The position numbers were made by a program, and so were the translations under genes. A DNA stretch of 64,000 nt, taken from the NCBI RefSeq assembly GCF_003113895.1, contig NZ_BDUD01000001.1, positions 4,939,315 to 5,003,314 on the forward strand, written 5' to 3'. Shown one piece after another: positions 40,903 to 60,852 of this stretch (its first letter is position 1; each line of letters opens with the position of its first letter). Under the pieces are notes generated by a model. The model searched no databases. It saw nothing but the letters and a program-made list of their open reading frames with translations, and had not been told where the DNA came from. The DNA is from Nostoc commune NIES-4072 (GTDB taxonomy: Bacteria; Cyanobacteriota; Cyanobacteriia; Cyanobacteriales; Nostocaceae).

Positions 40903-41919
40903 TTAGCGGAACATACTACTAACTGAAGTATCTTCATGAATCCGCCAGATAGTTTCTCCTAAGAGATTAGCTACTGACAGCACCACTAGCTGGGGAAAGC
41001 GATTGTTTTCTGGTATGGGAATTGTATTTGTAACAATCACTTCTTCAAACAAACCACTAGACAACCGCTCCATCGCTGGTGGAGAGAACACTGCATGAGT
41101 TGCACAGGCGTATACTTGACGCGCTCCTTCTTCACGCAGTAATCGCGCTCCTTCAGCGATCGTGCCTCCAGTGTCGATCATGTCATCCACTAAAACTGCC
41201 GTTTTGCCTTTAACATCGCCGATGATATTTAACACTTCGGCAACATTATGTGCATGACGACGTTTGTCAATAATTGCAAGTGGGGCATCATTCAGTTTTT
41301 TTGCAAATGCTCTGGCTCGCGCGACACCGCCAACATCAGGGGAAACAACCACAAGGTCGGGCAGTTCTTTGCTTGCTAGATAATCCAGCAAGACTGGCGA
41401 ACCATAAACATGGTCAAAAGGGATATCGAAATAGCCTTGAATTTGAGCCGAGTGTAAATCCATTGCTAGAACGCGGTTAGCACCTGCTTCGGTGATCAGG
41501 TTAGCAACTAGCTTGGCGGTTATTGACTCTCTTCCTGCCGTTTTGCGATCGGCACGGGCATAGCCATAGTAGGGAATTACTGCCGTCACCTGTCGCGCAG
41601 AAGCTCGACGACAGGCATCAACCATAATCAATAATTCCATAAAATGATCGTTCACGGGTTGACAACATGGCTGGATTAAATAGACATCACAACCCCGAAT
41701 CGATTCTTGGATTTGAACGTAAAGTTCTCCATCCGCAAATCTTTTGCGAATCATTGGCCCCAAGTCCATGCCCACATAACGAGCAACTTCTTGAGACAGT
41801 TGGATATTGGCAGAGCCAGAAAACAGCCGCAGGCGATGATTATCACTCAGTCCTGTTGCAGATGGTTGCACTTTGAAAGTTGCAGAACTGAGCACAGCAG
41901 ATCCTCTATGTGCATTCAT
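40903..41919 (-). CDS. prs: Ribose-phosphate pyrophosphokinase
   Basis: 338 residues. Makes PRPP from ribose 5-phosphate and ATP, the precursor of purines, pyrimidines, His, Trp and NAD. Conserved segments: RLRLFSGSANIQLSQEVARY near residue 28, DLHSAQIQGYFDIPFDH (PRPP-synthase metal site, about residues 155-171), DKRRHAHNVAEV (flexible loop) and VLVDDMIDTGGTI (PRPP-binding loop, about residues 243-255). N-terminal ~25 residues are longer than E. coli Prs. Divergent from the polyprenyl-phosphate-pentose gene row, whose first enzyme consumes PRPP. Confidence 0.96.
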   Translation of the reverse strand: MNAHRGSAVLSSATFKVQPSATGLSDNHRLRLFSGSANIQLSQEVARYVGMDLGPMIRKRFADGELYVQIQESIRGCDVYLIQPCCQPVNDHFMELLIMVDACRRASARQVTAVIPYYGYARADRKTAGRESITAKLVANLITEAGANRVLAMDLHSAQIQGYFDIPFDHVYGSPVLLDYLASKELPDLVVVSPDVGGVARARAFAKKLNDAPLAIIDKRRHAHNVAEVLNIIGDVKGKTAVLVDDMIDTGGTIAEGARLLREEGARQVYACATHAVFSPPAMERLSSGLFEEVIVTNTIPIPENNRFPQLVVLSVANLLGETIWRIHEDTSVSSMFR

Positions 41920-42561
41920 AGCAATATTATCATTAAAGATTTAATAGGTTTAACCGAGAAATCGCCTAAAAAAACATTTGTGAGTTTTATTGAATCTTCC
42001 ATACAAAATTTAAACATTTTTCCATAAAATTATCATTCGCTAACTGTCTAATTTTTTTGGCAAGCAAACTATTGATAGCTTAACGGACATTTAGTCCATC
42101 CACTAGGTCTATAGTTCAAATTTTTGGGTTGAGGTAAACATTGGTGTGGTAAGTTCTTCTAACTACCTCATTTATAGCTAACACTAAAGCATTTACAACT
42201 TCAGTGATATTGAAGCTTGTTCTCATACAGTATAGCACCTGCAACTAAGTACCGTCATAGTAGCTTATAATTCATGTTTTACGTATTGACAAAAATGGTA
42301 CTTACATGAATTAGAGCACGATCGCAGTAGATACAAGGTATTCACACATAATGAAATTTTTAGATAAAGATTGAATAAATTTTAAATAAAGATTTAATAA
42401 AAACATTCTTTATGATACCAAAACATTACTCAACAAGAGTAATATCATCTAGGTAAAGATTTGTAAGTATTTTTACTAAAATAAGTTTTAATTAAATGCA
42501 GCTAAATGCAGAAAAATTGTTCAATCTAAATTCTCCTGAGACATAAAAGTGGGAAATACTT
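41920..42561. other. Divergent region between prs and the DPPR synthase gene
   Basis: 642 bp. Left 100 bp should hold the prs promoter. The right part has AT-rich direct repeats of AATAAAGATTTAATAAA type at 42366-42403. No hairpin or known RNA recognised. Confidence 0.4.
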
Positions 42562-43536
42562 ATGGACTCTCGACGTAATTCAGTAGCAGAAAAATCTTTA
42601 ACTAGTTCTAAAAAGTCGGCGCACTATCTAGCTGCTATGCGACCGCGACAATGGACAAAAAACCTGGTGGTGTTTGCGGCACCCTTGTTTGCATTTAGCA
42701 TCAATCTGCAATCTATACTAGGTAGCCTATTGGCATTTGTATTATTTTGTTGTGCATCAAGTGGCTTCTACTTAATCAATGATATAGCAGATGTTGAATC
42801 TGACCGTCAGCACCCTGTAAAATGTAAGCGGCCAATTGCTGCTGGATTGGTTAGCACCCGTGTTGCTAGTGGTATGGCATTGGTGCTGTTGGGTAGTGCT
42901 CTGATTTTTGGGTGGTTGCGATCGCCCCAGTTGGGTGCAGCTATAACTGCATACGCAGTGTTGCAGATCGCCTATAATCTACGACTCAAACGGATGGTGA
43001 TTTTGGATGTTGGAGCGATCGCTACCGGATTTGTCCTACGAGCATACGCTGGTGCTGCTGCTACTGGTATTGTTTTATCTAGTTGGTTTTTAATTTGCAC
43101 TGCAATGCTGGCGCTATTCTTAGGTATTGAAAAGCGCAAAGCAGAACTACGGTTAGCACAAATTAAAGGCAACAAGCCTCGTTCTGTTCTCAAATACTAT
43201 TCCTTGCCCCTACTGGCTCGCATGGAAAATGTCGTCACTACTTGTACGGTTATCACCTATACTCTTTGGAGCGCAGGCCCTTACTTGCATGGGGCACGCA
43301 CCTCTTGGATGCTGCTCACTTTGCCGTTTGTTTTGTATGGAATTTTTCGCTATCAACTGCTGAGTGATCCTCAGGAAATTACCAGTTACAGCGACGACAC
43401 TATTGAGCATGGTGGACGCAGTGAAAGACCGGAAGAAGTTTTATTAAAAGATTTACCCATCCTATTAACTGTTATTGGTTGGGTGATCACTTGCTTTGTG
43501 ATTCTCTTGCTCAAACATCAAGGGCTGATCGAATAA
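42562..43536 (+). CDS. Decaprenyl-phosphate phosphoribosyltransferase (UbiA family)
   Basis: 324 residues, eight or nine membrane helices. The enzyme transfers 5-phosphoribose from PRPP to polyprenyl phosphate, first step of polyprenyl-phosphate-pentose synthesis (Rv3806c/DPPR synthase in mycobacteria). Key motif NDIADVESDRQHPVKCKRP (about residues 73-91, NDxxDxxxDRxHPxKxxRP) and a second Asp/Glu helix with LGIEKRKAEL. The C-terminal stretch HGGRSERPEEVLLKD is also typical of this family. First of a four-gene row; PRPP synthase is divergent next to it. Confidence 0.9.
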   Translation: MDSRRNSVAEKSLTSSKKSAHYLAAMRPRQWTKNLVVFAAPLFAFSINLQSILGSLLAFVLFCCASSGFYLINDIADVESDRQHPVKCKRPIAAGLVSTRVASGMALVLLGSALIFGWLRSPQLGAAITAYAVLQIAYNLRLKRMVILDVGAIATGFVLRAYAGAAATGIVLSSWFLICTAMLALFLGIEKRKAELRLAQIKGNKPRSVLKYYSLPLLARMENVVTTCTVITYTLWSAGPYLHGARTSWMLLTLPFVLYGIFRYQLLSDPQEITSYSDDTIEHGGRSERPEEVLLKDLPILLTVIGWVITCFVILLLKHQGLIE

Positions 43537-43584
43537 ATCTAGTAAATAGGTTAATACAAGAGTTTTCAGCAAGGGAATTTTTGG

Positions 43585-44169
43585 ATGAAAAATTTCAAAG
43601 CTTTTTTAATGAAATGGCGGAAATTGGCTTTTAAAGAGAAACGCCATAACCTTCCACGACATGTCCATACGCTAGCTCAGATAGAAATTGACAACCTCAA
43701 GAATTGTGGCATTAAAGGAATTATTCTCGATTTAGATAACACAATTATTTCAGAAGATGATCGCTACTTATCTCCTTATGCAGAAGATTGGATTACGCAA
43801 GCAAAGTTCGCCGGATTACAATTTTTTATCCTTTCAAATGGTAAACGTCGCTATCGCGTCAAATATTGGTCTCATCGTCTTAATATTCCAGCACTTAGTC
43901 CAGCGAAAAAACCCTTTCGCCCTGCATTTCGACATGCAATAACTTATATGCGATTACCAGCAAAACATGTACTCGTCATTGGTGATAGTTTACATACTGA
44001 TTTTGTGGGATCACTACTTTGTGGATGTCGCTTCATGCAAGTTGCTAGTCTACCGCACCCACCCCGATGGTGGGAAAAACTTGCTGGGAAATGGGTACAG
44101 ATACCTTATCCATCTGGAGGAGAACTTTGGGATTTTGACGGGATTACTGGCTATGAAAGCTTCTTATAA
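43585..44169 (+). CDS. YqeG-type HAD phosphatase
   Basis: 194 residues, HAD class IIIA phosphatase. Motif I GIILDLDNTIIS (residues 46-57, nucleophile Asp), motif II Ser in FFILSNGKRRYR, motif III Lys in ALSPAKKPFRPA and motif IV VIGDSLHTDFVG. Family members dephosphorylate small phosphate esters. Here, 48 bp after the DPPR synthase gene, it is a candidate to remove the 5-phosphate from polyprenyl-phosphate-5-phosphoribose, as the phosphatase step between DPPR and DPR does in mycobacteria (where a different family is used). That role is inferred. Confidence 0.85.
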   Translation: MKNFKAFLMKWRKLAFKEKRHNLPRHVHTLAQIEIDNLKNCGIKGIILDLDNTIISEDDRYLSPYAEDWITQAKFAGLQFFILSNGKRRYRVKYWSHRLNIPALSPAKKPFRPAFRHAITYMRLPAKHVLVIGDSLHTDFVGSLLCGCRFMQVASLPHPPRWWEKLAGKWVQIPYPSGGELWDFDGITGYESFL

Positions 44170-44221
44170 ATTGCTCTTTTTCTCAAAAAATTTTACCTTA
44201 TAAACTGACTAAATTTTCCCC

Positions 44222-44557
44222 ATGAATAATCAGATAGTTTTTAGTTTACTGATTCTAATCACAGTAGGATTAAATACACTGGCTCAAAATCTATTGAAAC
44301 TAGGAGCAGGACAAAATCCTTTAAATATCTATTTACTAGGAGGAATTTGTACTTATGGGCTAAGTACGATTTTTTACGTGGTAGTTTTAGGAAAGCTGAA
44401 TTTATCTGTTGCTTATCCAGTAGTAATAGGATTAACAATTATATTTACAATGCTCACTGGTGCTGTAATTTTGCGAGAAAAAATCTTATTTTTGCAATGG
44501 TTAGGAGCGGGTTTGATGTTGAGCGGTATCGGGGCAATTGCTTTAGGTAAGCAGTGA
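44222..44557 (+). CDS. SMR/EamA-type small membrane transporter (possible flippase)
   Basis: 111 residues with four membrane helices, the size of EmrE or ArnE/ArnF. Shows NTLAQNLLKLGAGQNP in helix 1, the YVVVLGKLNLSVAYPVVIGL Ala-Tyr-Pro core and a terminal LGAGLMLSGIGAIALGKQ. ArnE/F flip undecaprenyl-phosphate-aminoarabinose. Position between the phosphatase and a GT39 gene suggests a flippase for a polyprenyl-phosphate sugar; drug export cannot be excluded. Confidence 0.8.
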   Translation: MNNQIVFSLLILITVGLNTLAQNLLKLGAGQNPLNIYLLGGICTYGLSTIFYVVVLGKLNLSVAYPVVIGLTIIFTMLTGAVILREKILFLQWLGAGLMLSGIGAIALGKQ

Positions 44558-44651
44558 TTAATAATGCAAGGCAGAAGTCAGTTTTAAAATTTTTATTTAA
44601 ATAAATTGTGCAGCAGTGATTGCTATAGCTTCATGAGGAGGAAATAAAATT

Positions 44652-46217
44652 ATGATTAAAATCTTAAATCAGAAATGGTCGAGATACTATCTGTTTGTTT
44701 TAATAGTGATTATCTTGAGTGTTTTCCTGCGCTTTTTTCTGTTGTCAAAACAAAGCCTTTGGTTTGACGAGGGTTTGACTTTAAGTCTTTCTGATGGCTC
44801 GACACTTCAAGAGACCATTACAAAGGTAAGAACCGTAAAAAATAGTGATAGATTTCAACCACTATACTTTATAGTTCTATTTTTTTGGCGTCAGATGTTT
44901 GGTGAAAGTGAATTTGCCCTTCGTTCACTCTCTGCTATTTTAGGAATTGGCTCAACTATCGCTATCTACTTTACTGCTTTGCGGATATATGGAAAAAAGC
45001 ACGCTTTATGGTCTCTAGTAATCATAACATTTAGTTCTTTCTGTGTTTACTACAGCCAAGAAGCAAGAATTTATGCCTTAGCAATCTTTTTAGCTTCACT
45101 TCAACTATATTTCCTCAGCACGGTATTAACTGAAAATAAGGATAATCCAAGTCAAAGTATTTCAATATGGCTATTCAGTATCTTTACTGCTATAGGAATT
45201 TTTAGTAATATTAACTTTTTATTTTCTACTATAGCTCTATGTCTCTCTCATATTGCCATCTATAGAAATTTCAGGCAATGGCTGCAATGGTGGGTTCCTG
45301 CTGCGTTTTTATCTTTACCGCCAGTTTTATATTATCTGACTTTACCTGGAGCAACTGATCCAGAAAGCATTGAAGTTTCTCGCTTAGGATTCCCTATCAT
45401 TCAAAATATTGTTTTTGTGTTATATGGAATTTTAGTGGGGACAACGTATGGGCCTTCAACGGAGCAATTGCGTGGCGATAATAAAGTACAGATTGTGCTT
45501 CATTACTGGCCTCATATAGTTTTATTAGTGATTGTCGGTATTGCAATTTTTCTGGCTTTAATAAAAGTTTTATTGAGACACAAAAAAAATAACAGAGATC
45601 AGCATCCTGATTATTTCTTTGCTTCTGTGATTGTTATGGCATTTTTGCTAGGATTGCTCTTAGCTATAGTTACCAAATTTAATTGGGTTCCGCGCCACTC
45701 TTATTTTCTTTGGTTCCCACTTGCCATGCTTATCCCATCAGCTTTGAGTCAAAGACCTGGTAATAGCTCAAAGCCCAAGGGAGTGTCTCAGTTTGCTCAA
45801 ATCGCTGTCATATCTCTGATAGTTCTGAATATTTATTCTCTTTATAACTACTACTTTAATGATGATTATCAGAAAGATGACTACCGCTCTGCGATCCAAT
45901 ACATTATAAAAAATCGTTCATCTTCGACAAAATCCGTAGTTTTATTTGGTAATCTCAGATTATTTAGATACTATGGTGACACTCTAACTGTGAATGCACA
46001 GAATTTAGGGAATCAGTTAAGGAAGGGGATTACTGATGAAAATTTTGCAGAAAAAATTGAAAATTTAACAAATCGTGCGGATACAGTTTTGATGGTAGTT
46101 AATCGTGAACATCTATTTCCCAAAGGATTGATTGAAAAAGAGATGAGCGATTTGTATAACCTGGATTCTCAAGTTAATTTTGCATATTTCAAAATATCTC
46201 GTTTTATCAAGAAGTAA
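44652..46217 (+). CDS. GT39/ArnT-like (GT-C) glycosyltransferase
   Basis: 521 residues, about 11 membrane helices. The first outer loop has QSLWFDEGLTL (residues ~34-44), the Asp-Glu motif of PMT/ArnT-like glycosyltransferases, and further down YFIVLFFWRQMFGESEFALR. The soluble C-terminal domain begins near residue 410. These enzymes take polyprenyl-phosphate-linked sugars on the outer face of the membrane. A GAGGAGGAAATAAAATT stretch precedes the ATG. Last gene of the row; it fits as the transferase that uses the lipid-linked pentose. Acceptor unknown. Confidence 0.88.
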   Translation: MIKILNQKWSRYYLFVLIVIILSVFLRFFLLSKQSLWFDEGLTLSLSDGSTLQETITKVRTVKNSDRFQPLYFIVLFFWRQMFGESEFALRSLSAILGIGSTIAIYFTALRIYGKKHALWSLVIITFSSFCVYYSQEARIYALAIFLASLQLYFLSTVLTENKDNPSQSISIWLFSIFTAIGIFSNINFLFSTIALCLSHIAIYRNFRQWLQWWVPAAFLSLPPVLYYLTLPGATDPESIEVSRLGFPIIQNIVFVLYGILVGTTYGPSTEQLRGDNKVQIVLHYWPHIVLLVIVGIAIFLALIKVLLRHKKNNRDQHPDYFFASVIVMAFLLGLLLAIVTKFNWVPRHSYFLWFPLAMLIPSALSQRPGNSSKPKGVSQFAQIAVISLIVLNIYSLYNYYFNDDYQKDDYRSAIQYIIKNRSSSTKSVVLFGNLRLFRYYGDTLTVNAQNLGNQLRKGITDENFAEKIENLTNRADTVLMVVNREHLFPKGLIEKEMSDLYNLDSQVNFAYFKISRFIKK

Positions 46218-48997: not shown

Positions 48998-49094
48998 ATG
49001 TCATTCAAGTGGCATATCTTAGTCATAGAAATGTCATTAGCATAAGTTAATTTGTCGGTGTTTGATTAAAAGTAAATTACTTACGCCTGACATC

Positions 49095-49997
49095 ATGATG
49101 CTTTCTTTTGCAGTGGCGAGTGCAATCTGTGGCAAAGGTAGTGAAGTGAATCTAGACTTTGCTAACCTTAGCTGGATTGACGTGATTATTTTAGGCATCG
49201 TTCAGGGAATTACAGAACTATTACCAATTAGCAGTACTGCTCATTTGCGGATAGTGCCAACTCTACTGGGACTCAAAGATCCGGGGTCTGCTTTTTCAGC
49301 AGCTATGCAATTAGCTAGCTTGACTGCTGTTTTAGTCTATTTTTGGCAAGACTTAAAAAAACTAACCGGAGAGACAGTTAGAGCAATTAGCGGGCAAGAT
49401 TATCAATCTAGTTCTTTGCAACTGATGTTAGGTTTATTGGTAGGAACCTTGCCTATTGCTGTGGCTGGTGTGCTACTCAAACCAATTCTTAACGCCTGCA
49501 ACTCACCAATGCGAGGGTTAGTAGTTATTGGTGTGGCTTCAATTATTATGTCAGCATTGCTGGCGATCGCAGAAAAACGCGGAGGGCGCGATCGTACTTT
49601 CGACAAACTCACCCTCTGGGATGGCATTTGGGTAGGAGTTGCTCAAGCTTTTGCCCTGATCCCTGGCGTTTCTCGCTCTGGTTCTACCCTCACTGCTGGG
49701 TTATTTTTGGGCATGGAACGGGAGACATCAGCCCGATTTTCTTTTTTGTTGGGCTTACCAGCCGTGATTTTGGCGGGTGCTGTAGAACTCCACACTCTTA
49801 GCAAAGCAGGACTGAGTGCATCTGGTTGGTTGACTTTATTGGTAGGCTTAATCTCTGCCAGCATTTCCGCTTTTCTTGCAATTTGGGGACTTCTACGCTA
49901 CCTAGAAAAACACAGTACCTTGATTTTTATTTTCTACCGCTTGGCAATGGGTGTATTTTTGATAGTTGCGGTGATGGCTGGTTGGTTGCAGAATTGA
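49095..49997 (+). CDS. uppP: Undecaprenyl-diphosphatase
   Basis: 300 residues, about eight membrane helices. UppP (BacA) dephosphorylates undecaprenyl diphosphate to recycle the carrier lipid of peptidoglycan. Conserved motif LGIVQGITELLPISSTAHL (E and SSxxH, about residues 35-53) and the second motif GVAQAFALIPGVSRSGSTL (Arg/Ser, about 180-198). The frame starts with TTG at 49062; ATG at 49095 is preferred. It supplies polyprenyl phosphate also needed by the DPPR pathway upstream, but is its own unit. Confidence 0.94.
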   Translation: MMLSFAVASAICGKGSEVNLDFANLSWIDVIILGIVQGITELLPISSTAHLRIVPTLLGLKDPGSAFSAAMQLASLTAVLVYFWQDLKKLTGETVRAISGQDYQSSSLQLMLGLLVGTLPIAVAGVLLKPILNACNSPMRGLVVIGVASIIMSALLAIAEKRGGRDRTFDKLTLWDGIWVGVAQAFALIPGVSRSGSTLTAGLFLGMERETSARFSFLLGLPAVILAGAVELHTLSKAGLSASGWLTLLVGLISASISAFLAIWGLLRYLEKHSTLIFIFYRLAMGVFLIVAVMAGWLQN

Positions 49998-54059: not shown

Positions 54060-56972
54060 TTATGCTTGCAAGACAAAATCAGATGCCGTGAGAGTTGGCG
54101 CACCAGTTAGAGTCGCAAATAAACCACCACTGCCAAAACCAGCCGCACTGCCATTAGAGTTGTAGAACAACTGCCCACTCACAGGATCGTAAACAATTTT
54201 CGCTGTGCTAGTCCCCGCTAAATTAGTGACTTCAAAATCACTCAAGTTGTTAAAACCCGTTCCCGCAGCAGAGGTAATGGCACTAAAAGTAGTTTTATCC
54301 AGTACAATCTTGTCACCTTGGGAACTGTTGAAGTCAGTAATGGCAACTTCACCAACAGCACTCAGGGCAAAAGCAGCATCGGTGTTGTAAAGGAATCTGT
54401 CAGCACCTACATCACCAATGAGAATATTATTGCCGAATCCACCGATGAGAGTATCATCGCCTTCTCCGCCCCGCAACAAGTCATTGCCACTGTCGAGGTT
54501 TTTCCCCCCAAACACTACATAGCTTTGCCCAGCACCAGAGATGCTGTTGGCAAAAGGTGCCCCAATAATCAGGTCGTCAATGCCATCGTTGTTGATGTCC
54601 CCTGCATTGCTGAGTGACGTGAAAAAGTCATTTGATCTAATGGCGTTAATTAAAAAGCCATTATTGCCATTCAATTCAGAGAGGTTGAGGCTGCCGCCAC
54701 TGCCCAGATTCGTCCCCCCAAACACTACATAGCTTTGACTAACCACAGAGTTGCCATCGAGGGAGGCATATTCTGCCCCAATAATCAGGTCGTCAATGCC
54801 ATCGTTGTTGATGTCCCCTGCATTGTTGACTAAGGTGCCTGAAGAGTCACCCGATGCAATGGCGTTAATTAAAAAGCCATTAGTGCCATTCAAATCAGAG
54901 AGGTTGAGGCTGCCGCCACTGCCCAGATTCGTCCCCCCAAACACTACATAGCTTTGCCCTGGTCTAGAGATGCTGTAGGGGTCGGCATCTTGTGCCCCAA
55001 TAATCAGGTCGTCAATGCCATCACCGTTGATGTCCCCTGCATTGCTGACTAAGAAGCCTGAATAGTCATCTTCTGCAATGCCGTTAATTAAAAAGCCATT
55101 AGTGCCATTCAAATCAGAGAGGTTGAGGCTGCCGCCACTGCCCAGATTTGTTCCCCCAAACACTACATAGCTTTGCCCAGCATTAGAGATGCCGTTGGGG
55201 TCGGCACCAAATGCCCCAATAATCAGGTCGTCAATGCCATCACCGTTGATGTCCCCCGCATTGCTGACTGAGTTGCCTGAAAAGTCATTTGATCTAATGC
55301 CGTTAATTATAAAGCCATTATTGCCATTCAAATCAGAGGGGTTGAGGGTGCCGCCACTGCCAACATTCGTCCCCCCAAACACTACATAGCTTTGCCCTGC
55401 CCCAGAGATGCCGTTGGGGTCGGCACCAAATGCCCCAATAATCAGGTCGTCAATGCCATCGTTGTTGATGTCCCCTGCATTGCTAACTGAGCGGCCTGAA
55501 AAGTCATTTGATCTAATGCCGTTAATTAAAAAGCCATTAGTGCCATTCAAATCAGAGAGGTTGAGGCTGCCGTTAGTGCCAACATTCGTCCCCCCAAATA
55601 CTACATAGCTCTGCCCTGCCCCAGAGATGCGGTTGGGGTCGGCATATTGTGCCCCAATAATCAGGTCGTCAATGCCATCGTTGTTGATGTCCCCTGCATT
55701 GCTGACTGACTGGCCTGAAAAGTCATTTGATCTAATGCCGTTAATTAAAAAGCCATTAGTGCCATTCAAATCAGAAAGGTTGAGGCTGCCGCTACTGCCA
55801 ACATTCGTCCCCCCAAATACTACATAGCTTTGCCCAGCACTATAGTTGCCGTTGGGGGAGGCATTATATGCCCCAATAATCAGGTCGTCAATGCCATCAC
55901 CGTTGATGTCCCCTGCATTGCTAACTGACTGGCCTGAGCGATCTAATTCTGCAATGCCGTTAATTAAAAAGCCATTATTGCCATTCAATTCAGAGAGGTT
56001 AAGGAAATTGAATGCAGCATCGGTGTTGTAAAGGAATGTGTTAGCACCTACACCACCTACAAGAGTATCATTCCCTACACCACCTACAAGAGTATCATTG
56101 CCGAATCCACCGATGAGAATATCATCGCCTTCTTGGCCTCGCAACAGGTCATTGCCACTTAAGCCATTAATTATGTCATTACCTCCTTGACCATTAATCA
56201 CATCATCTGAGTTGTCAAAACCTGCGATGTTATTGTTTAAGTCATTGAGGAAAGTGACGGTGTTTTTGTTAAAAATGCTAGTTTGAGTGGAGTTGGCATT
56301 AATTACATCAAAGCTGTCGTTGATGCTGGTTTGCCCATCAAACAAGATATTGCCTAATGCAATTCTTGAATTAGTTTCTGGCAGGTTATCCAGGTTTTCT
56401 AAGAAGAAGTTTTGCAGAGTTACTTTGGTAGATGCCACATTTTCAAAGGTGACTTCTAAGTTGTTGCCTTGAGGAGTTAGTTGCAGATTTTTGGCAGTCA
56501 ATCCCGAACCGATAAATTGCAGCTGATCAACATTAATAATCACTGCTTGAGATGGGTTGTAGCCCTGACCAACGCCACCAAAATCGGTGATGGTGTCATT
56601 GCCATCGCCAGGGCGAAACACAAACTTATCTTGACTGCCGTTACCTGTGAGGGTATCGTTACCTGCTTTGCCGTCGATGATGTTGTTGCCAATTGTACCG
56701 ATGAGAGTGTCTGCATCAGCAGTTCCCGTTAGGTTAATCGTGCTGCCGATGTTCTTCCCCCCAAATACCACATAGCTCTGCCCTGAGTAGGCGCCGTTGG
56801 GGGAGGCAAAAGGTGCCCCAATAATCAGGTCGTCAATGCCATCGTTGTTGATGTCCCCTGCATTGCTGACTGAGGTGCCTGAGCGATTATCTTCTCCAAT
56901 GCCGTTAATTATAAAGCCATTATTGCCATTCAAATCAGAGAGGTTAAGGAAATTGAATAATGAATTAGCCAT
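54060..56972 (-). CDS. FG-GAP/RTX repeat protein, apparent fusion of two tandem copies
   Basis: 970 residues from ATG 56972, which has AGAGGTG upstream (GTG at 56978 rejected). One FG-GAP (integrin-alpha-like) unit at the N-terminus, then RTX-type Ca-binding nonapeptide blocks (GGxGxDxLxGxxGNDxL), a second RTX block, then seven FG-GAP units of 73 residues with DGIDDLIIGA Ca-binding loops, a further RTX block, and the secretion C-terminus [13 protein letters not shown]...ATLTGAP, a type I export signal. Near residue 320 the sequence YNTDAAF is joined straight to NFLNLSELNG, as if two proteins were fused. Surface or secreted. Function unknown. Confidence 0.88.
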   Translation of the reverse strand: MANSLFNFLNLSDLNGNNGFIINGIGEDNRSGTSVSNAGDINNDGIDDLIIGAPFASPNGAYSGQSYVVFGGKNIGSTINLTGTADADTLIGTIGNNIIDGKAGNDTLTGNGSQDKFVFRPGDGNDTITDFGGVGQGYNPSQAVIINVDQLQFIGSGLTAKNLQLTPQGNNLEVTFENVASTKVTLQNFFLENLDNLPETNSRIALGNILFDGQTSINDSFDVINANSTQTSIFNKNTVTFLNDLNNNIAGFDNSDDVINGQGGNDIINGLSGNDLLRGQEGDDILIGGFGNDTLVGGVGNDTLVGGVGANTFLYNTDAAFNFLNLSELNGNNGFLINGIAELDRSGQSVSNAGDINGDGIDDLIIGAYNASPNGNYSAGQSYVVFGGTNVGSSGSLNLSDLNGTNGFLINGIRSNDFSGQSVSNAGDINNDGIDDLIIGAQYADPNRISGAGQSYVVFGGTNVGTNGSLNLSDLNGTNGFLINGIRSNDFSGRSVSNAGDINNDGIDDLIIGAFGADPNGISGAGQSYVVFGGTNVGSGGTLNPSDLNGNNGFIINGIRSNDFSGNSVSNAGDINGDGIDDLIIGAFGADPNGISNAGQSYVVFGGTNLGSGGSLNLSDLNGTNGFLINGIAEDDYSGFLVSNAGDINGDGIDDLIIGAQDADPYSISRPGQSYVVFGGTNLGSGGSLNLSDLNGTNGFLINAIASGDSSGTLVNNAGDINNDGIDDLIIGAEYASLDGNSVVSQSYVVFGGTNLGSGGSLNLSELNGNNGFLINAIRSNDFFTSLSNAGDINNDGIDDLIIGAPFANSISGAGQSYVVFGGKNLDSGNDLLRGGEGDDTLIGGFGNNILIGDVGADRFLYNTDAAFALSAVGEVAITDFNSSQGDKIVLDKTTFSAITSAAGTGFNNLSDFEVTNLAGTSTAKIVYDPVSGQLFYNSNGSAAGFGSGGLFATLTGAPTLTASDFVLQA
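54060..56972. repeat. 219-bp tandem DNA repeats encoding FG-GAP units
   Basis: Repeat period of 219 bp, with AT CAGGTCGTCAATGCC conserved in each copy, seven copies across about 54.5-56.0 kb (for instance at 55189, 55408, 55627 and 55846). Copies are nearly identical at DNA level, which points to recent duplication or gene conversion. Confidence 0.85.
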
Positions 56973-57164
56973 AATCACCTCTTTTACATCTGGTTATTAA
57001 ATATTTATTGACTGCGTAATTAATATATCAACTCGGAAAAAGATAACAGGTTCTTATTATAACCGTTAAATTACTTTAATCTTTTTCTGAATATCTAAGC
57101 ATTATCAAGGGGCTAGGTATAATTATATAGGATTACTATTTGATTTTTGAATGGAATTAGGTAT

Positions 57165-57246
57165 TGTAGAGTGTGTTAGAACAGAGTTCGTAACGCACTA
57201 TTATCAAGGGTTTGATGCCGTACTCTCCGTGCTAACACATCCTACA
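57165..57246. repeat. 82-bp inverted-repeat element
   Basis: Ends TGTAGAGTGTGTTAG at 57165-57179 and CTAACACATCCTACA at 57232-57246, imperfect inverted repeats (13 of 15 match). The interior includes GTTCGTAACGCAC, a common Nostoc repeat core. Confidence 0.65.
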
Positions 57247-57541
57247 GATATTTTCTCCAAATCAAACCGGATTCCTATAGTAAAGTTAAAGTCAATTTTA
57301 GGAAGTGGTATATAAAGTTTTCCTGTCACCGATAGCGTAACCCTACGGGGAGGCAAGCTACAGACAGCGTTTTGAAGAGTTGCGTTAGTAAATCTTGTGT
57401 GCAACACCCTCTTTTGTTCAAGGATGACAGCCGCTCGTAGACATCGCGTTCTTTTTAGAAATTGTATTAAGGAACTAAACCCAACATGGGGGCGTTTGTT
57501 GACTAAACTTTGAGTTCAACACAACTTAAACTACAGCGTTA

Positions 57542-57746
57542 GTAACAAAAATAACGACTTTAGTAACCAAAATTATAATGTTTGTAACGAAAATAATGAC
57601 TTTAATAACCAAAATGGTTATTTTATAAGGAAAATTATAATGTTTGTAACAAAAAGAATTATTTTACTAACCAAAATGATTATTTTGTAACGAAAATAAC
57701 GATTTTCGTTACAAAAATCGTATGTTGTAACAAAAATTGCAACTTG
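57542..57746. repeat. Ten imperfect 21-bp tandem repeats
   Basis: Units follow GTAACRAAAATNAYGAYTTTA with A-tracts spaced by 21 bp, two turns of DNA. Related single copies occur at about 60.79 kb. No open frame; AT-rich. Could be a bent-DNA element or a binding-site array. Confidence 0.75.
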
Positions 57747-57866
57747 ATAAGCTGATGCGCGTCTAAAGTATATAAACACTCTATTGGGTCGTTAACTGTT
57801 GACTGTTGACAGGTTTTCAGTCATCAGTTTGCAGTTAGCGGTGAAAGTTGTCACGTTTTAGACAAA

Positions 57867-60422
57867 CTATGCTTGCAAGATAAAATCTGATGTTGTGAGA
57901 GTTGGCGCACCAGTTAGAGTTGCAAAGAGACCACCACTGCCAAAACCCGCCGCACTGCCATTTTGGTTGTAGAACAACTGTCCACTTACGGAATCGTAGA
58001 CAATTTTTGCTGTGCTAGTCCCCGCTAAATTAGTGACTTCAAAATCACTCAAGTTATTAAAACCCGTTCCCGCAGCAGAGGTAATGGCACTAAAAGTAGT
58101 TTTATCCAGGATAATCTGATCACCTTGGGAACTGTTGAAGTCAGCGATCGTGTCTTGACCAATAGCAGTCAGGGCAAAGGCTGCATCGGTGTTGTAAACG
58201 AAAGAGTCAGCACCTACACCACCAACGAGAATATCATTGCCGAATCCACCCACAAGAGTATCATTGCCATCTCCACCGATGAGAATATCATCGCCTGACC
58301 CGCCCCGCAACAGGTCATCGCCACTCAAGCCATTGATAATATCGTTACCCCCTTGACCATTAATCACATCATTGGAGTTGTTAAAACCTGCGATGTTATT
58401 GTTTAAGTCATTGAGGAAAGTGACAGTGTTTTTGTTGAAAATGCTAGTTTGAGTGGAATTGGCATCAATCACATCAAAGCTGTCGGTGATACTGGTTTGC
58501 CCATCAAATAGGATATTGCCAATCGCTGGTAGGAAAAAAGTTGCTGGCAGGTTATCCAGGTTTTCTAAAAGGAAGTTTTGCAGAGTTACTTTGGTGGATG
58601 CCACATTTTCAAAGGAAACTTCTAAGTTGTTACAATTTTGAGTTAGTTGCAAATTTCGGGCAGTCAATCCCTTACCTGTAAATTGCAGTGTATCAACATT
58701 GCTAATTACTGCTGCTTTGAGAGTCACAGCCTCTAATGGATTTGAGCCTTTACCAACGCCAGCAAAATCGGTGATAATGTCATTGCGATCGCCTGGACGA
58801 ATAATAAACTTATCTTGACCACCGTTGCCTGTCAGGGTATCATTACCAGATTTGCCGTCGATTATGTTGTTTCCACTTGTACCTACAAGAGTATCTGTAC
58901 CAGCAGTTCCCGTCAGGTTAATGGTGCTGCCCCTGCCGATATTCTTCCCACCAAATACCACGTAGCTCTGCCCCGACGGGGACGAGTCGCCGTTGAGGTA
59001 GACATTAGGTGCCCCGATAATCAAGTCAGCGATGCCGTCACCGTTGACATCTCCGGCACTGCTGACAGAAAAACCTGAACCGGAACCCACGATGCCGTTG
59101 ATGGCGAAGCCGTTAGCGCCGTTGAGGTCTGAGAGATTGAGTGTGGGGCTAAAGCCTGTGCTCTTGCCAAATACCACGTAGCTCTGCCCTGAACCATAAC
59201 CGTTGGGGGAGGCATTTGGTGTCCCGATAATCAAGTCAACGATGCCATCATCGTTGACATCTCCGGCACTGCTGACAGAAACGCCTAAGGTGTCATCTGA
59301 CTTGATGCCGTTGATGGCGAAGCCGTTAGCGCCGTTGAGGCTAGAAAGGTTGAAAGTGGGGCTAAAGCCTATGCTATTGCCAAATACCACGTAGCTCTGC
59401 CCTGAATCATTACCGTTGGGGTCGGCACCAGATGCCCCGATAATCAGGTCAGCGATGCCATCACCATTGACATCTCCGGCACTGCTGACAGAAATACCTG
59501 AGTAGTTAAACGCCTTAATGCCGTTGATGGCGAAGCCGTTAGCGCCGTTGAGGTCTGAGAGATTGAGAGTGGGGCTAAAGCCCGTGTTCTTGCCAAATAC
59601 CACGTAGCTCTGCCCTGACTGGAGTCCGTTGGGAGAGGCACTAGATGCCGCGATAATCAGGTCAGCTATGCCATCATCGTTGACATCTCCGGCACTGCTG
59701 ACAGAATTGCCTAATTCGTCACCTGACTTGATGCCGTTGATGACGAAGCCGTTAGCGCCGTTGAGGTCTGAGAGATTAAGTGTAGGGCTAAAGCCTGTGC
59801 TCTTGCCAAATACCACGTAGCTTTGCCCTGAATAAGTGCCGTTGGGGGAGGCATTTGGTGCCCCGATAATCAAGTCAGCGATGCCATCATCGTTGACATC
59901 TCCGGCACTGCTGACAGAGAAGTTTGAGCTGTCACCCTGCTTAATGCTGTTGATGGCGAAGCCGTTAGTGCCGTTGAGGTCTGAAAGGTTGAAAGTGGGG
60001 CTAAAGCCTGTGCTCTTGCCAAATACCACGTAGCTCTGACCAGAATAAGTGCTGTTGGGGGAGGCCCCAATAATCAGGTCAGCGATGCCGTCTGCGTTGA
60101 CATCTCCGGCACTGCTGACAGAAATGCCTGATCTGTCACCTGACTTGATGCCGTTGATGGCGAAGCCGTTAGCGCCGTTAATGCTAGAAAGGTTGAGAGC
60201 AGGGCTAAAGCCTGTGCTCTTGCCAAATACCACGTAGCTTTGCCCTGACTCGGAGCCGTTGGGGGAAGCAAAGGCTGCCCCAATAATTAGGTCAGCGATG
60301 CCGTCACCATTGACATCTCCGGCACTGCTGACAGGCAAGCCTGAACCGTCACCCGCCATGCCGTTGATAGTGAAACCGTTACTGCCGTTGAGGTTAGAGA
60401 GATTTAATGATGAATAAACCAT
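57867..60422 (-). CDS. FG-GAP/RTX repeat protein
   Basis: 851 residues. Seven FG-GAP units of about 71 residues (repeat [20 protein letters not shown], then [20 protein letters not shown] with a Ca-binding DxNxDG loop), an RTX region with GGxGNDxL nonapeptides ([19 protein letters not shown]), and the C-terminal type I secretion-like domain shared with the upstream protein. ATG 60422 follows an AGGA site; the longer frame to 60521 is rejected since its first 33 residues match no repeat. Very close paralogue of the gene at 54-57 kb. Likely secreted or cell-surface. Confidence 0.88.
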
Positions 60423-60852
60423 AATTTTATCCTGTGTTTGTAGTAATTGACTATTCGAGAGCTTTGGCAAATAAAATTCGCGGCTAGACAAACTCCAAGG
60501 GAGCTGCACAAACTCACACAAAATTCCCGTTTATAATTCGTAATTCGTAATTAGGAAATTTAATCACGAGTTACAAGGCTTACAATTAGACATCTCCAGA
60601 AATTAATTATGCATTACCTAAAACCCTGTATAAACGTTGCATTGCAACGTCTTTACATTTATTTTCACCAGATGTCTATTACGAGTTGTATTGATAGCGG
60701 TCAATTGAAGTTAGCGTCATTCTGGTAAAGTTAGAGTTAATTTTAGGAAGTGCTATATAAAGTTTTCGTGTCACCGATTGATATTTTGTAACGAAAATTG
60801 CGACTTGAGTAACTCAAGTCGCAATGCTTATAACTAAAATTAGGATTAATCT
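60423..60852. other. Intergenic region upstream of the RTX gene
   Basis: 430 bp. A palindrome (60628-60656, GTATAAACGTTGCA/TGCAACGTCTTTAC) of the TAGAGACG-type family with a different core lies mid-region. It also holds the nifJ terminator and a copy of the 21-bp repeat unit. Confidence 0.55.
60797..60825 (-). terminator. Terminator of nifJ
   Basis: Fourteen-base-pair stem (ATTGCGACTTGAGT with AACTCAAGTCGCAAT), 28 bp after the nifJ stop on the minus strand and followed by TTTTCG. Strong stem, moderate T-run. Confidence 0.75.

Follow-up and report, generated by a model that had tools for sequence, protein, structure and literature searches.

In Citrobacter youngae O1 and O2, Kelly et al. (2024; PMC11127046) described three-component pentofuranose systems, which they proposed to be common. 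These combine a polyprenyl phosphoribose synthase that carries a HAD phosphatase domain with a predicted flippase and a glycosyltransferase of the GT-C class; the main text of that paper never uses the word cyanobacteria (the supplement was not searched). Pendant D-ribofuranose groups, in turn, are reported in a secondary source for heteroglycans from Nostoc commune and from other members of the genus (PMC5635763). Here we describe a row of four genes from Nostoc commune NIES-4072 (contig NZ_BDUD01000001.1), located in a stretch of 64,000 nucleotides that we refer to as the window. They encode a UbiA-superfamily enzyme, a YqeG-family HAD phosphatase, a small membrane protein of the SMR type and a GT39/ArnT-like glycosyltransferase (Table 1). 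Judging from sequence comparisons and structural models, this cassette probably constitutes a make-trim-flip-use route to a lipid-linked ribofuranose, which would serve as an accessory decoration of surface glycans.

In the proposed route, the UbiA enzyme would join phosphoribosyl pyrophosphate (PRPP) and polyprenyl phosphate to polyprenyl-phosphate-ribose-5-phosphate, from which the YqeG-type HAD enzyme would remove the 5'-phosphate to give polyprenyl-phosphate-ribofuranose. The small DMT/SMR protein would then bring this lipid to the outer face, where the GT-C enzyme would pass the ribofuranose on to an acceptor that differs between lineages, with a polysaccharide destined for export as the likeliest candidate. 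An earlier note on this DNA had already suggested a complete pathway of this kind for a lipid-linked pentose and had counted the neighbouring PRPP synthase gene prs among its members; the pathway retains inferential support, whereas the membership of prs does not hold.

Predicted activities of the four gene products

The UbiA protein passes the model for decaprenyl-phosphate phosphoribosyltransferase (NF008978; 252.9 bits, cut-off 207), and its residues 21–311 align with the solved DPPRS of M. tuberculosis (8j8j; phmmer, E 4.1e-44), including the motif NDxxDxxxDRxHPxK. Across 13 aligned rows, N73, D74, D77 and D81 in loop II and R192 and E195 in loop IV are invariant; by our own reading of the motifs, they would correspond to N247, D248, D251, D255, R366 and E369, the positions examined in the synthase of Kelly et al. 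(PMC11127046). Family membership and motifs thereby suggest a PRPP-dependent phosphoribosyltransferase.

The HAD protein passes the YqeG model (TIGR01668; 173.6 bits, cut-off 89.1), and the residues of its DxDxT and later motifs (D49, D51, T53, S84, K109, D134 and D139) are invariant in all seven aligned rows. A profile search of solved structures matched HAD-superfamily proteins, mostly phosphatases. It is the second copy in this genome, which spans 8.2 Mb and holds a separate, ordinary YqeG at C1:7057607 with 28% identity to the cassette protein. Its catalytic residues, its position and its co-occurrence with UbiA point to a polyprenyl-phosphoribose 5'-phosphatase. At E <= 0.001 it has no match to PF12710, the family to which we take the PRP phosphatase domains to belong; no PRP model entered this comparison. 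A PF12710 HAD is carried by another cyanobacterial UbiA locus with a DprE1 gene (L043, 5645–7240), fused there to a lysylphosphatidylglycerol-synthase-type membrane domain.

Among Pfam families, the small protein matches TMEM234 and EamA (both under the cut-off) and Multi_Drug_Res (PF00893), the last by a marginal pass at 24.4 bits against a cut-off of 23.7, and a profile search of solved structures with its alignment gave no match. The MATE family of flippases is not among its matches, a statement about this protein that does not extend to MATE genes elsewhere in the genome, which were not searched for. Its position and its weak kinship to known transporters make it a candidate flippase for polyprenyl-phosphate-ribofuranose.

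The glycosyltransferase passes PMT_2 (GT39-like; 35.7 bits, cut-off 26.1), and its structural model has an ArnT-like fold with an acidic motif after the first helix, which places it in the GT-C class; a profile search of solved structures with its alignment gave no match. From fold and position it may be a ribofuranosyltransferase, both its substrate and its acceptor being putative. The gene row read in the earlier note is found again with its gaps of 48, 52 and 94 base pairs (bp) between consecutive genes, and family scores bear out the names given there to the UbiA, YqeG-type HAD and GT39-like proteins; the SMR/ArnE-like label of the small protein is more weakly placed, ArnE being its best NCBIfam match but far under the cut-off.

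Table 1. Features of the window, in window coordinates
Feature	Position	Strand	Length (amino acids)	Remarks
UbiA-superfamily polyprenyl-phosphate phosphoribosyltransferase (PPPRS/DPPR synthase), predicted	42562..43536	+	324	
YqeG-family HAD-IIIA phosphatase, second copy (paralogue)	43585..44169	+		proposed polyprenyl-phosphoribose 5'-phosphatase
Small DMT/SMR (ArnE/EamA-like) membrane protein	44222..44557	+	111	proposed flippase for lipid-linked ribose
GT-C glycosyltransferase, GT39/ArnT-like	44652..46217	+	521	proposed extracytoplasmic ribofuranosyltransferase
prs, PRPP synthase	40903..41919	-		makes the donor; NF002758 674.2 bits, cut-off 518; not a conserved cassette member
Open reading frame resembling undecaprenyl-diphosphatase UppP (by eye)	49062..49997			2.8 kb downstream of the glycosyltransferase gene
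Two large repeat proteins (by eye)	54060..60521	-		many SNAGDIN/DGIDDLIIGA-like repeat units

Distribution of the cassette among cyanobacteria

A scan of named cyanobacterial genomes with the 13-row UbiA alignment yielded 124 confirmed loci, of which we considered the best 80; these are loci rather than genomes, as a few genomes contribute two (for instance L069/L107 and L083/L089, by record name). The closest named relatives of the window's UbiA are from Nostoc. A YqeG-type HAD gene lies beside UbiA on the same strand in 63 of the 80 loci, which spread over many cyanobacterial families; in 51 of them, no more than 100 bp separate the two genes (largest gap, 1110). The small protein is also present in 51 of the 63. 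It lies downstream of the HAD gene in all but one of these, with a distance of 250 bp or less from the end of that gene in 49, so that the three-gene order is kept in 50 of the 80 loci. The remaining 17 loci lack the YqeG-type HAD: four are cut by a contig end, four have DprE1 (two of them together with another HAD, recognized because it resembles the PF12710 HAD of L043), two have this other HAD, two the small protein only and five none of these.

A sample of 194 genomes from the phylum gives a similar picture. The HAD subtype of the cassette (52–100% identity to the window copy; next best match, 37%) occurs in seven of them and, by coordinates, adjoins UbiA in all seven, each of which also has an ordinary YqeG (29–31% identity). 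With the UbiA family over its cut-off in 11 of the 194 genomes, the chance of all seven HAD subtypes falling within these is 1.8e-10 if kinship is ignored. The grouping of UbiA and HAD exceeds chance. Among the four UbiA genomes without the HAD subtype, three (G118, G008 and G026) encode DprE1 close to UbiA (loci L043, L049 and L050), while near the UbiA of the fourth (G096; L051) neither DprE1 nor the HAD subtype was found. One further protein of the subtype (P0338; 67% identical) is labelled as coming from an Actinomycetota metagenome-assembled genome, which is perhaps a mis-binned cyanobacterial contig.

The fourth gene follows a different pattern. In 36 of 54 loci, UbiA is followed at a distance of 0.3–3 kb by a same-strand gene for a large polytopic protein, versus four of 46 in a control stretch at 5–7.7 kb. 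A second family of such partners (27 proteins in 25 of 85 clustered loci) has no link to the window's glycosyltransferase at a BLASTP E of 1e-8, but also models as GT-C; this assignment rests on the model and the top Foldseek rows, of which none reached E <= 0.001 (best, 2.2e-3). The fourth gene is hence conserved as a GT-C class, as far as sequences and models allow, and differs in sequence between lineages. Where the earlier note had staked its reading on four genes staying together in a conserved order, the UbiA–HAD–SMR core and its order are kept in most of the 80 cyanobacterial loci, while the fourth position is conserved in kind but not in sequence.

By contrast, we rejected prs as a part of the cassette. 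Although it is divergent from UbiA in the window, with 642 bp between the two, it is found near UbiA in only ten of the 80 loci: nine are from Nostoc, with prs on the opposite strand, and in the tenth (L132) it is on the same strand.

Within Nostoc, the HAD subtype, counted irrespective of UbiA adjacency, is matched in 14 of 53 genomes, one of these matches being a broken piece. Because the subtype is so patchy here, we regard the cassette as accessory, and its patchy spread fits the variation of surface glycans between strains. The broken piece (G265:C9:8853-9110) is 58% identical over 86 residues and has several stops. In Nostoc sp. XA010 (L085, 10001–11205), the nearest relative of the window's UbiA is cut to 199 amino acids, and after a further 81 bp comes a glycosyltransferase remnant of 174 amino acids; HAD and the small protein were not found at this locus, a pattern as after an internal deletion. 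Ten of the 85 clustered loci (L066, L067, L068, L069, L108, L111, L116, L118, L123 and L141) have a methyltransferase-like protein of 211–248 amino acids near UbiA, of which the L066 member was compared with Pfam. Either the pentose or the acceptor might be methylated by this protein.

Further downstream in the window, the product of the UppP-like open reading frame could feed the same lipid carrier that the cassette uses. The two large repeat proteins beyond it probably combine FG-GAP repeats and RTX-like stretches rich in glycine. Scans for promoters and terminators gave counts no higher than in shuffled sequences, and nothing was used from them or from an alignment of the DNA between prs and UbiA.

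The nature of the pentose and the alternatives

On the question of ribose or arabinose, we searched 46 genomes with a DprE1 profile built from nine rows. The window's genome has no match at E <= 1e-10, and it has no match to PF04030 either. Matches at E <= 1e-10 were found in 27 of the 46 genomes, eight of them at 2e-189 or better; the best among the other 19 is 8.8e-23, and we take these to be other flavin adenine dinucleotide-binding proteins. On this basis, of 30 genomes chosen because they have a YqeG-type locus, 29 have no true DprE1. The exception, G060, has a UbiA–YqeG–SMR locus and, separately, a UbiA of 507 amino acids with DprE1 and DprE2 neighbours (L047, L056). A further genome, G214, picked for L107, has no DprE1 and seems to be the same genome as that of the YqeG-type locus L069. 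The suggestion of the earlier note that the sugar may stay ribose, for want of a DprE1/2-like epimerase, thereby gains inferential support. PF04030 itself was replaced by the profile as a detector of DprE1: it matched seven of 48 genomes, where the coordinates suggest that G118 and G219 are a single genome. It failed to pick up the DprE1 of G060, yet matched the YqeG-type genomes G204 and G217.

A UbiA tree built from 90 rows by a quick method under LG+G4 leaves 34 of its 86 inner branches open. The DprE-bearing rows L099, L101, L109, L124 and L043 fall inside a mostly YqeG-type cyanobacterial group, with a support of 82 at the joining forks, L049 lies near the base of this group, and the remaining DprE rows form long outgroup branches. 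The sole use we make of this tree is to suggest that YqeG-type and DprE-type contexts belong to one UbiA family.

Several observations weigh against the ribofuranose route. The UbiA enzyme stays under the cut-offs of two sister models (NF008977, 215.9 bits against 234; NF008976, 205.8 against 474). YqeG relatives, for instance PGPP1 of Chlamydomonas and Gep4 of yeast, are reported as phosphatidylglycerophosphate phosphatases (PMC5897459), their grouping with YqeG resting on a match to PF09419; the cassette HAD shares this family and could be a spare enzyme of that kind, grouped with UbiA for merely regional reasons. This is highly improbable, however, given that all seven sampled carriers have an ordinary YqeG besides, that the subtype adjoins UbiA in every one of them and that the pairing recurs across so many families. 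The flippase is the weakest link of the route because the small protein lies far below the cut-offs of ArnE (28.4 bits against 92) and ArnF (23.3 against 99) and is missing nearby in 12 of the 63 UbiA–HAD loci. These absences, along with its pass of Multi_Drug_Res by 0.7 bits, would also suit a drug or metabolite exporter outside the pathway. Yet drug-exporting SMR proteins need a glutamate in the first helix, and none is among the invariant first-helix positions of six small-protein rows; as the protein follows HAD so regularly and finds its best NCBIfam match in ArnE, we consider an exporter very unlikely.

Doubts of another kind concern the last step and the sugar. In what is a crude count, 18 of the 54 loci have no large polytopic protein downstream. 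The GT-C enzyme might use some other lipid-linked sugar, with the three-gene core serving a different transferase: the fourth gene varies by lineage, and its donor is unreadable from the fold. Against such a use stand the excess of such proteins after the core over the control stretch and the GT-C models of both partner families, and we judge it unlikely. The cassette might also yield lipid-linked arabinose or another pentose, if polyprenyl-phosphate-ribose were epimerised before flipping by an enzyme encoded elsewhere. DprE1 and DprE2 do occur near a related UbiA in four of the 80 loci, G060 combines both kinds of locus, and G204 and G217 have their match to PF04030, the ALO domain, elsewhere in the genome, although they match the DprE1 profile only weakly (E 7e-13 and 1.5e-22). 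Moreover, a non-DprE epimerase may act in the pathway, and Kelly et al. described an SDR epimerase for xylose (PMC11127046). However, DprE1 and the YqeG subtype never occur at the same UbiA among the 80 loci, and the window's genome lacks a DprE1 match, a result specific to DprE1, as other epimerases were not searched for; another pentose is thus quite unlikely.

The ribofuranose route can be extended to a larger scenario, which is tentative and, taken as a whole, rather doubtful. A YqeG paralogue, of a family known for phosphatidylglycerophosphate, would have taken on the dedicated role of a polyprenyl-phosphoribose 5'-phosphatase, the Nostoc cassette would attach D-ribofuranose as the pendant sugar of the heteroglycan in the sheath, and the donor would have been switched between ribose and arabinose in evolution by swapping YqeG and DprE1/DprE2 behind the same UbiA. 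We know of no enzyme for the D-ribofuranose side groups of Nostoc, a point to which we devoted no dedicated search. The cassette is a candidate for their source. If the proposed route holds true, lipid-linked pentofuranose chemistry reaches cyanobacteria, a further kind of phosphatase joins Rv3807c and the PRP domain in the trimming step, and the side groups of Nostoc glycans have a testable genetic candidate.

Comparison with known systems

In its architecture, the cassette brings together all parts of the three-component system of Citrobacter youngae O1/O2 (PMC11127046), namely a UbiA-superfamily synthase, a HAD phosphatase step, a flippase, here by predicted role, and a GT-C enzyme. That system makes ribose by default and other pentoses where epimerase genes are added, and it is the ribose default to which we liken the cassette. 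Unlike there, however, the phosphatase is not a domain fused to UbiA but a separate YqeG-family HAD, and in place of the predicted MATE flippase there is a small SMR/EamA-like protein. With the mycobacterial decaprenyl-phosphate arabinose pathway (Rv3806c, Rv3807c, DprE1/DprE2 and Rv3789; PMC11127046), the cassette shares the first enzyme, a proposed SMR-family flippase and GT-C users. It differs in its phosphatase, as Rv3807c lies outside the HAD family, and in having no DprE1 match at the above threshold in the genome. Likewise, the cytoplasmic gPRT-PRP ribofuranosyltransferases (PMC11127046) use PRPP as donor, followed by HAD dephosphorylation, but they place ribose-5-phosphate directly on the glycan instead of a lipid.

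The Arn system, finally, resembles the cassette in combining a small DMT-type flippase (ArnE/ArnF) with a GT39-like transferase (ArnT) for a lipid-linked pentose. Its donor is made from a UDP-sugar rather than from PRPP, and its acceptor is lipid A.

The earlier note had regarded such an arrangement with a HAD phosphatase as not known to be described in cyanobacteria. The general system is already known from Kelly et al. (2024; PMC11127046); measured against the main text of that work, the novelty appears to lie in the cyanobacterial hosts, in a separate YqeG-family phosphatase and in a small SMR-type protein in place of the MATE flippase.

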